From positions 1 through 64,000 of the forward strand of contig LUKI01000004.1 in assembly GCA_001593685.1 (NCBI GenBank): a stretch of DNA of 64,000 nucleotides, in the 5' to 3' direction. The notes under the pieces are model-generated. The model saw nothing but the letters and a program-made list of their open reading frames with translations. It was not told the DNA's origin and ran no database searches. Position numbers and translations under genes: made by a program. This document shows, one piece after another, positions 10,640-36,337 of the stretch. The DNA is from Gammaproteobacteria bacterium F7 (GTDB lineage: Bacteria; Pseudomonadota; Gammaproteobacteria; Pseudomonadales; IMCC2047). The first letter of the stretch is position 1; each line of letters begins with the position of its first letter.

Positions 10640-10656
10640 CGGTAAAGGCGGACGCA

Positions 10657-10913
10657 TTTATTTCACTCTTCGAATTTTTAAATACTTCATTTCGCCCTTT
10701 CGGCGAGTTAAGGCTTTTTTGGTCGCCCAAAAGCCTTAACAATCCAAAGCCGCCCCTGCAGCTTGATCGCTTCGCGATTGCCCTGCGCGTTCCACTTTCA
10801 AATGGGGGCTGCGGAACTCGCCTAACGGCTCAGACAGTCCTCGCCCTTTTTCCATTTGAAAGTTGCAATGCTCGACTGCGCAGAAGGGGATTGGGGTGCC
10901 GGGCATGGCTTTG
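10657..10913 (-). repeat. Folded repeat element, copy A1
   Basis: First of four related elements; its 5'-to-3' order runs on the minus strand. Plus-strand stems: P5 10693-10696 with 10702-10705, P4 10707-10718 with 10729-10740 (12 bp), P3 10766-10770 with 10774-10778, P1 10795-10805 with 10852-10862 (11 bp) enclosing P2 10820-10822 with 10827-10829. On the element strand the loops of P3 and P5 are GAA and GAAAG. The head contains GCGCAG then GAGCATTGCA. Its stems differ in sequence from the B copies but sit in the same order. It contains no plausible gene. Confidence 0.8.
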
Positions 10914-10937
10914 GACAATTAATGATTGGGTGGAGCG

Positions 10938-11059
10938 TACTCCGGTAAAAATGTCGTCATGCCGGATTTAATCCGGCATCCAGTTCTTTAAACGCTATGG
11001 ATTATTCGCTTCGCTTGTCCTGGCCTCCACTTAATTATACCCGGAATGGCGTGGGGTCG
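10938..11059. mobile_element. Palindrome-bearing insertion (MITE/REP-like) between A1 and B1
   Basis: Comparison of the A1-B1 spacer with the A2-B2 spacer shows about 122 extra bases here, between GGAGCG and TTGTATATTTCTG. The insert carries a near-perfect palindrome, TGCCGGATT / AATCCGGCA at 10960-10978 with a single central base, of the kind found in short dispersed repeats of many proteobacteria. No coding capacity is seen. It implies that the A-B pair is older than this insertion. Confidence 0.55.
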
Positions 11060-11064
11060 TTGTA

Positions 11065-11299
11065 TATTTCTGTTGGCATTAGGCTGGCACACCATCTTCC
11101 CCTTTAAGCGCAGCTGAGCATTGCAGGATTCAGGCGGAAATAAGCGAAGCTTGTTTGAGGCTGAAAGCCGAGTTGCTGAGCGCCGCCTGAAACCGAAACG
11201 CGCAGGGTACCCGGAACGGGCAAGTGCCAGGGGCCGACAGGGATTGATAAGGGAGGCTCGGCGGCCTCCCTTGTCTCGCCAGTCAGGCGAAATGAGATG
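11065..11299 (+). repeat. Folded repeat element, copy B1
   Basis: This copy runs on the plus strand, head-to-head with A1. Stems: P1 11129-11137 with 11183-11191 (9 bp) enclosing P2 11159-11162 with 11166-11169, P3 11210-11213 with 11217-11220, P4 11246-11257 with 11264-11275 (12 bp, one G-T), P5 11277-11280 with 11286-11289, and the tail GAAATGAGATG. It is nearly identical to B2, but P2 and P3 differ between the two while still pairing. The short open frames inside it are by-products of the repeat. Confidence 0.8.
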
Positions 11300-11320
11300 C
11301 AGGGTAATTGGCTAATAATC

Positions 11321-11344
11321 GGGGACAGAGTAACCCCCCCAAAA
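11321..11344 (+). other. REP-like remnant next to copy B1
   Basis: The stretch begins GGGGACAGAGTAAC and continues into a run of C and A. From memory this resembles the ends of REP sequences mobilised by RAYT (IS200-like) transposases, which often read GGGG-t/a-CAGAGTAA. No transposase gene is present and no second end is seen, so this may be a remnant or chance. Confidence 0.3.
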
Positions 11345-11402
11345 AATATCACACGTTTGGATCTGGTTTTTAGTTCCTTATCCAGGCTTCAAGTTAGTAA
11401 GC

Positions 11403-11636
11403 TTAACAGCCGCAACTCATACCAAATTTTATCTTCATATCCATCAAATGCTGAGTAGGAACAAACTCGACATCACCGGCAATAATTTGCTTAATTTTAT
11501 TAACCGTCACCCCTAAATGTTCCGCTGCTTCTTCATTGCTATATCCAAATTTATCAATTAAATCAGCAACATCTTGCGCATGCTTTTTACGGATCATAAC
11601 TATAGCTGCATCTATTTCTGCTTGTGTCTTTGTCAT
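11403..11636 (-). CDS. Small helix-turn-helix protein
   Basis: A 77-residue protein whose start at 11636 (MTKTQAEID) has a good ribosome-binding site, GGGAG, 8 bases upstream. A longer reading begins at a TTG and is less likely. The middle segment DLIDKFGYSNEEAAEHLGVTVNKIKQII looks like a helix-turn-helix of the resolvase/XRE kind (residues about 25-50). The C terminus ends in CGC. It is AT-rich compared with the core genes and lies alone between repeat copies B1 and A2, on the strand opposite the HEPN-like gene. I do not recognise a named family. Confidence 0.6.
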   Translation of the reverse strand: MTKTQAEIDAAIVMIRKKHAQDVADLIDKFGYSNEEAAEHLGVTVNKIKQIIAGDVEFVPTQHLMDMKIKFGMSCGC

Positions 11637-11704
11637 GAAGTGACTCCCATCAAAGCTAGTCAAATTTTAATATCTTTTTATTTTAAAATTAAAAATGGGA
11701 CTTA

Positions 11705-12005
11705 TTTATTTTACTCTTCGATTTTTTTAAATATTCCATTTCGCCTTTTCTAAGCGAGTTAAGGCTTTTGAGTGCTCAAAAGCCTTAACAATCCAAAGCC
11801 GCCTGCCCCAGGGCACCTTCTCTTGCTTCGCAATTCACCTTGCCTACAGCTTGCTCGCTTTGCGACTGCCCTGTGCGTTTTTCTTTCAAATGGGAGCTGC
11901 GGAACTCGGCTTCGCCTCAGACAGTCCTCGCCCTTTCTCCATTTAAAAGATCAATGCTCGGCTGCGCATGAGGGGAGATTATTTGGTGCTGGGCATGGTT
12001 TTGTG
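11705..12005 (-). repeat. Folded repeat element, copy A2
   Basis: Minus-strand copy. Plus-strand stems: P5 11741-11744 with 11754-11757, P4 11758-11772 with 11775-11789 (15 bp, perfect), P3 11855-11858 with 11862-11865, P1 11883-11893 with 11939-11949 (one mismatch) enclosing P2 11908-11910 with 11914-11916. It is longer than A1 because of roughly 40 extra bases between P4 and P3, which include another small hairpin (TTGC / GCAA). The head has CGCAGCCGAGCATTG. P2 is GGC/GCC here and GCC/GGC in A1. Confidence 0.8.
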
Positions 12006-12031
12006 GAACTTAAGTTTGTGTGAGCGTTGAT

Positions 12032-12270
12032 TATTTCTGTTGGCATCAGGTTGGCACACCATCTTCCCCTTTAAGCGCAGCTGAGCATTGCAGGATTCAG
12101 GCGGAAATAAGCGAAGAGTGTCTGAGGCCGCAGGCCGAGTTGCTGAGCGCCGCCTGAAACCGAAACGCGCAGGGAATCCGGCAAAGCCGGACAAGTGCGA
12201 GGGGCCGACAGGGATTGATAAGGGAGGCTCGGCGGCCTCCCTTATCTCGCCACAAAGGCGAAATGAGATG
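12032..12270 (+). repeat. Folded repeat element, copy B2
   Basis: Plus-strand copy, head-to-head with A2 at short distance. Stems: P1 12096-12104 with 12150-12158, P2 12126-12129 with 12133-12136 (GGCC with GGCC), P3 12177-12182 with 12186-12191 (6 bp, loop AAA), P4 12217-12228 with 12235-12246 (12 bp, perfect), P5 12248-12251 with 12257-12260, and the tail GAAATGAGATG. It ends about 105 bases before the transglycosylase gene. Confidence 0.8.
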
Positions 12271-12375
12271 TTGGATAAAGGCGTCGCTTTTAATTCTGGC
12301 GATTTATTTCTGGCGCGATTTTTGCCTTGTTGTTTGGTATGCACATGATTAAGCGCTAAAACAAGAGCAATCATT

Positions 12376-36167: not shown

Positions 36168-36243
36168 GGGGCTATAGCTCAGCTGGGAGAGCGCAACACT
36201 GGCAGTGTTGAGGTCAGCGGTTCGATCCCGCTTAGCTCCACCA
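36168..36243 (+). tRNA. tRNA-Ala (anticodon GGC)
   Basis: A 76-base tRNA with a 7-bp acceptor stem (GGGGCTA with TAGCTCC, one G-T), TAGCTCAGCTGGGAGAGC as the D-arm, anticodon loop CTGGCAG giving GGC, TTCGATCCC as the T-loop region, and an encoded CCA end. It is cotranscribed with tRNA-Glu 18 bases downstream. Confidence 0.97.
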
Positions 36244-36261: not shown

Positions 36262-36337
36262 GTCCCCTTCGTCTAGAGGCCTAGGACACCGCCCTTTCAC
36301 GGCGGTAACAGGGGTTCGAACCCCCTAGGGGACGCCA
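36262..36337 (+). tRNA. tRNA-Glu (anticodon TTC)
   Basis: A 76-base tRNA. Acceptor stem GTCCCCT with AGGGGAC, D-arm CGTCTAGAGGCCTAGGAC, anticodon loop CTTTCAC giving TTC, T-loop GTTCGAACC, and CCA encoded. GltX in this window charges it. A strong terminator follows. Confidence 0.97.

Follow-up and report, generated by a model that had tools for sequence, protein, structure and literature searches.

What is a stretch of bacterial DNA for that folds by one plan four times over, twice on each strand? The question arises in a window of 64,000 nucleotides (the whole stretch of DNA analysed here, from contig LUKI01000004.1 of Gammaproteobacteria bacterium F7), where a sequence-only reading had pointed to four copies of a folded element, A1 and A2 on the minus strand and B1 and B2 on the plus strand, set in two head-to-head pairs. 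All four copies are present, as the pairs A1/B1 and A2/B2 of arms of about 200 nt. The location first given, 10657..12270, is right and its limits are slightly too narrow, the pairs spanning 10650-12278; the letters reported for stems P1, P3, P4 and P5 match the sequence. With a probability of roughly 0.6, we read the pair as a non-coding repeat of two unlike, outward-facing arms, predicted to fold on one strand, and likely a mobile element without a transposase, the folded arms being recognised by an enzyme encoded elsewhere. Beyond what had been proposed from the letters, the pair is the unit and usually joins arms of two different types, its family is found across phyla, and it sometimes encloses cargo.

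Layout and folds of the four arms

Each arm follows the same plan: a head (CCCCTT..GCGCAG..GAGCATTG), a stem P1 closing on a core hairpin with what we take to be a k-turn-like look, then hairpins P3, P4 and P5, and the end GGCGAAAT. The window copies, which are cargo-free, are laid out as follows.

10650-10889, minus strand: arm A1, with its head at 10889, its tail GGCGAAATG at 10688 and an A-type outer end to 10650; core-model match 10790-10862, 66.3 bits
10707-10740, minus strand: hairpin P4 of A1, GTTAAGGCTTTT type
10890-11098, no strand: spacer of pair 1, 209 nt, with a short palindrome ATGCCGGATTTAATCCGGCAT at 10959-10979
11099-11307, plus strand: arm B1; core-model match 11126-11199, 31.2 bits
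11246-11275, plus strand: hairpin P4 of B1, GATAAGGGAGGC type, also in the consensus fold of the alignment
11698-11975, minus strand: arm A2; core-model match 11878-11949, 64.2 bits
11758-11789, minus strand: hairpin P4 of A2
11805-11843, minus strand: extra hairpin insert of about 39 nt in A2, from the alignment, also in the own-genome copies C25m, C25p and C2b
11976-12065, no strand: spacer of pair 2, 90 nt
12066-12278, plus strand: arm B2; core-model match 12093-12166, 42.8 bits; fold z -5.54
12217-12246, plus strand: hairpin P4 of B2
12247-12261, plus strand: hairpin P5 of B2 (TCGCC/GGCGA), in the B2 fold and in the consensus fold of the alignment

B1 and B2 are 90-91% identical, and A1 and A2 share six ungapped blocks at 72-100% identity. 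The predicted fold of B2 has an energy of -93.5 kcal/mol, shuffles averaging -71.3 (z -5.54, with 0 of 200 shuffles as good), and that of A2 has a z of -2.49 (3 of 200 shuffles as good). The complement of B2 is also well folded (z -3.65), so that the folding strand is not given by energy alone. The core model recovered B1 at an E-value of 6.5e-6 in 0.5 Mb, from a training set in which B1 was absent but its close relative B2 was included. Between the two pairs lies an 86-aa helix-turn-helix ORF, 11403-11663 (-), with no obvious partner gene and an HTH_37 match just below the cut-off (26.9 bits against 27), and farther along the window are two tandem tRNA genes, 36168-36240 and 36262-36334 (+).

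Selection on the fold and its strand

The claim that the arms are under selection for folding is supported: covariation lies far above shuffled and slid controls, and the mismatches of P1 are biased by strand. Alignment A3 comprises 56 cores, taken from 161 distinct arms through a diversity filter giving 60; five of these were dropped, most with a broken 3' side, and one window arm was added, a choice that favours pairing. Tested against a structure written down before the test, 92.1% of its 555 cells pair, compared with an average of 74.3% in shuffles and 35-54% in slid structures. Cells with two-sided change number 78 against 26.6 in shuffles, and the covariation score is 0.352 against 0.092, values reached by 0 of 500 shuffles in either case. 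Two of the five measures are only mildly above shuffles, namely pairs with two-sided change (7 against 5.3; 10 of 500 shuffles) and further pair types (17 against 13.9; 25 of 500). Letter conservation in the core is partly imposed by the search pattern: columns 17/69, 18/68 and 37/52 are free of it, and 35/54 and 36/53 are partly set by the pattern or its neighbours. A separate consensus fold from ten own-genome copies has 34 pairs, nine of them with two-sided changes, most in P3 and P4.

The strand is told by mismatches in the P1 stem, counted by a method blind to mismatch type. On the sense strand of 165 arms, G.T outnumbers A.C by 73 to 14; control stems built from unrelated arms give 27:47. 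Relatedness in the covariation and strand tests was handled by similarity clustering alone, and with one representative per cluster the ratio is 46:9 at a similarity cut of 0.8 (p 4e-7), 25:8 at 0.7 (p 0.005) and 12:5 at 0.6 (29 representatives, p 0.14), the bias being not significant at this harshest clustering. Since G.T on one strand is A.C on the other, the sense strand is the one kept foldable. In P1, therefore, one strand is kept foldable, as RNA or as single-stranded DNA; mismatches in P4 have no strand preference (19:18).

The sense-strand bias and the conserved unpaired letters suit RNA equally with single-stranded DNA, and the arms may instead be structured RNAs, each divergent unit being the source of two folded transcripts that point outward (as a protein-binding sRNA or 3'-end element) and spreading its copies as repeats only, which we consider unlikely. 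A point in its favour comes from the genome G207, where the partner arm of a pair resembles TwoAYGGAY RNA (RF01731) in both copies (L170 1794-1916 (+) and L184 1170-1291 (-); 41.3 and 39.7 bits, below the cut-off of 43); if right, this would put that Rfam motif in a two-armed repeat. The likeness is limited to these partner arms, neither the window arms nor the other loci scanned having a TwoAYGGAY match. Against RNA, the window copies match no Rfam family at the curated cut-off, nor in any meaningful way when E values up to 5 are allowed, in keeping with the sequence-only reading, which knew of no named family, and the window region has no excess of promoter-like signals (3 against 1.7 expected) or terminator-like signals (1 against 2.6 expected). 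Rfam searches of L029, L040, L046, L061, L094 and L111 gave no meaningful match up to E 1, and of L129 only ncS16 at E 0.63; HEARO/omega RNA and other named RNAs were set aside, with no Rfam match in the window copies or scanned loci. What remains is a strongly conserved fold in several bacterial phyla whose window copies stand outside Rfam families. The fold evidence is common to both readings, and a mobile element is favoured over RNA because of the pair geometry, the moved copies and the cargo.

The pair as a unit and its spread

The genome from which the window comes, known as a draft (2.58 Mb, 214 contigs, completeness 86%), holds at least 12 arms, ten found by DNA searches and two C-type arms by motif scan. 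A covariance-model search of this genome had been proposed with the original description, and the core model lists 11 of the 12. Ten of the 12 stand in five head-to-head pairs of unlike arms, A/B three times and C/A twice. In all, 54 rows of arms paired within 3 kb, four of which repeat a locus, give 50 distinct pairs, whose flank classes (crude ones) are unlike in 41 and alike in nine. The arms are inverted and have tail hairpins in common, and the two ends differ in sequence and type. In G096 one pair of about 590 bp is present twice: its blocks match at 93.7% and 94.8% identity, the spacer differs, and the flanks are unrelated. Such a two-armed duplicate amounts to dispersal as one unit. 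The two copies in G207 are 87% identical over 761 nt. Pair gaps outside Azospira are 97-372 nt, with the Sulfuricella and Niveibacterium pairs treated separately, one Niveibacterium pair enclosing 2 kb in which lie a DnaJ-domain gene and a further ORF. Exceptions to the arrangement are Silvimonas, where all 22 model hits are unpaired at distances up to 3 kb; Azoarcus Aa7, in which one pair has its arms arranged the opposite way; and one Eggerthellaceae locus with two arms as a direct repeat.

A scan of species genomes with the core pattern found at least 117 stretches, carried by Rhodocyclales and other betaproteobacteria, gammaproteobacteria, Eggerthellaceae and other Coriobacteriia, Elusimicrobia, Patescibacteria and, by single records, other groups. 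Because many core carriers are MAGs, lone outlier taxa may be contamination. Two forms can be read: in Thauera, Azoarcus and Coriobacteriia the core sits in a plain long hairpin, and in Dechloromonas, Azonexus, Sulfuricella, Amphritea and Zhongshania it belongs to a compound arm as in the window. The distribution is patchy: when the class was sampled evenly, a core match turned up in 17 of 274 genomes, one of which is the window's own, and ten chosen genomes hold from 2 to 28 matches each. Plasmid and phage records searched with B2 gave no match, and none of eight pattern matches in viral contigs has the full core at two or fewer changes per half. A related hairpin, TTGTCTGAGCCGAAGGCGAGTTT, set in a long stem with P4/P5-like hairpins after it, is present in two viral contigs (L145 1723-1744 (+) and L149 364-385 (-)). 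A 26-nt DNA match in G037 was rejected as a chance hit inside a stretch that reads as a coding gene. No description of the element was found in the open-licence literature on its motif, its genera, MITEs, REPIN/RAYT or integrons, and it is best read as undescribed and widespread.

Among known systems, large REP/BIME-like palindromes offer one comparison. Palindromes of this kind are intergenic, form head-to-head dimers and occur in tens of copies, as arms do, and such dimers are common in GTAG REP families (PMC3733652). If the arms were palindromes of this sort, with roles at 3' ends or in the nucleoid and spread by a RAYT-type transposase now lost, an intergenic setting would suit them, and 32 pairs classified with a crude ORF caller comprise 15 between tandem genes, 8 convergent, 1 divergent and 8 undetermined. 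REPs measure 20-40 bp in the same source, however, whereas arms are about 200 nt with several hairpins and no constant RAYT gene: Y1_Tnp, hence RAYT, is missing in the window's own genome (86% complete) and in 8 of 16 arm genomes, the other 8 having a match. We regard this explanation as quite improbable. OrfB_IS605 was not found in the own genome either, and an IS200/IS605 or RAYT parent was rejected for want of a constant enzyme in the Y1_Tnp and OrfB_IS605 searches. The 3.7-kb head-to-head gap at L111 in Elusimicrobia, considered as a place for a transposase, holds ordinary genes as read.

MITEs offer a second comparison, the favoured reading being that of a MITE-like element. The element is short, lacks a transposase gene and has several dispersed copies (the 12 own-genome arms; the G096 duplicate). 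MITEs, too, are short, free of an enzyme gene, intergenic and dispersed, with transcripts predicted to fold, and can flank integrons; in Acinetobacter they flank class 1 integrons as identical copies (PMC10969869). Compared with those flanking MITEs, the two arms here differ from each other, have multi-hairpin covarying folds and span phyla, and the Azospira units described below hold an attI-like stretch and genes, without intI.

The mobile reading rests on these observations: arms set head to head as one unit, their unlike types, stems that covary, the strand bias of the core stem, the G096 duplicate and the Azospira cargo, often with an attI-like stretch. The arms would be the ends on which an enzyme acts; recognition may be of the folded strand, once replication or cruciform extrusion has made it single; and movement would be in trans, by an enzyme encoded elsewhere. 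Against this stand the failure of the Y1_Tnp and OrfB_IS605 searches to point to an enzyme, the lack of a target duplication or clean empty site at the sites compared, the even P4 ratio, the fading of the P1 bias at the harshest clustering, the nine alike pairs among 50, the unpaired Silvimonas hits and the lack of cargo in the window copies. If the reading holds, the element lacks a transposase of its own, ends in two unlike folded arms and depends on an enzyme encoded elsewhere.

Azospira cargo and a proposed integron link

In A. oryzae (G062) 10 of 11 model hits, and in Azospira I13 (G342) all 8, lie in head-to-head pairs 1.0-2.8 kb apart. A tenth Azospira pair, its second arm missed by the model and found by BLAST, encloses about 5 kb, in which eight ORFs reach 80 aa or more. 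All ten pairs consist of one X and one Y arm around 1-5 kb of differing genes, the main ORFs running from Y to X, an enclosure that the RNA alternative does not predict. The cargo includes an ion-channel protein, a DUF4062 protein, an abhydrolase, a weak DUF4238 match and a DUF4145 protein, and several proteins are unmatched. The DUF4145 protein (L228 1263-1838 (+)) matches the phage-defence model PD-T7-4 at 3.5e-69, the one match among nine Azospira cargo proteins given to PADLOC. The idea that the arms are ends enclosing their own transposase was rejected, the ORFs inside Azospira pairs being other genes by translations and Pfam.

Two sites can be compared between species, named after neighbouring genes whose translations read as amidase-like and MurB-like in one case and as thioredoxin-reductase-like in the other. 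At the amidase-like/MurB-like site, G342 and G062 agree at 93% and 95.5% identity in the two flanks and at 93% in the Y arm and 91% in the X arm; their arms are oriented alike, and the longest match between the cargoes is 17 nt. G062 has extra genes outside its arms there, and in a third species, G346, the site lacks arms and holds an unrelated gene, so the arms may be ancestral or may have been inserted twice. Beside the thioredoxin-reductase-like gene, arms oriented alike are common to G062 and G346, around unrelated cargo, and G342 has other genes. Across the three genomes no target duplication or clean empty site was seen, the sister species having, at the sites compared, arms around different cargo, different genes, or flanks that lie apart.

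In the Azospira elements compared, likeness ends at the arms on the cargo side, and the flanks of several other elements lie at separate places in sister species, which makes recombination between elements likely too. Both observations would fit homologous recombination between repeats as the sole agent, spreading arms and swapping cargo with no present transposition. That account leaves covariation and strand bias unexplained, as it does two-armed duplicates in unrelated flanks, and we hold it to be a distinctly remote one.

The Y side of the Azospira pairs may link the element to integrons. In 6 of 10 pairs it carries a stretch ending in CTACTACTAGTTAG, the attI core, and in the five compared this stretch aligns over 70-77 nt with the intI-adjacent sequence of both species at 85-92% identity; it is on that account read as an attI copy, and is likely derived from the chromosomal integron's attI site, with a function that would be that of attI. 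The pair with the PD-T7-4 match has no such stretch. Strict attC sites occur in 2 of 10 pairs, against a control of 2 attC-like hits per 136,000 nt; sites in other pairs are read as decayed attC. These assignments use the established attI and attC consensus sequences. Like the arms, attC is a folded recombination site, with the consensus RYYYAAC/GTTRRRY; the arms do not share that frame and are not attC. What the Azospira pairs have in common with integrons, CALINs and attC as treated in PMC8618304 is the attI-like stretch and, in the two pairs, strict attC. No intI lies within the pairs, the single over-cut-off intI of G062 and that of G342 being elsewhere.

In Azospira, then, the element may scatter extra docking sites, into which the integrase of the resident integron would place gene cassettes. 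Whether this makes a new class, with unlike ends recognised as folded single strands and spare integron docks that the integrase fills each differently, one integron serving many loci, is a tentative and rather doubtful proposal. If true, it would link MITE-like dispersal to integrons through likely spare attI sites with different genes, and could explain cassettes far from any integrase.

Beyond Azospira, a general association of arms with intI is weak. In the class sample, intI occurs in 11 of 17 arm genomes and in 97 of 257 others (two-sided p 0.039, ignoring relatedness), and it exceeds the cut-off in 13 of 21 chosen genomes. No arms were found beside intI at 15 loci covering 56 kb in all. 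The window's own genome encodes an integron integrase (L269 7661-8626 (-), C3:47666-48610; 427.8 bits, cut-off 265), with no arm at the locus and no strict attC in the surrounding 16.5 kb. The only arm pair seen beside an integron outside Azospira is that of Sulfuricella T08 (L272 16849-18142), which lies about 300 bp past the last attC-like site of the chromosomal integron.
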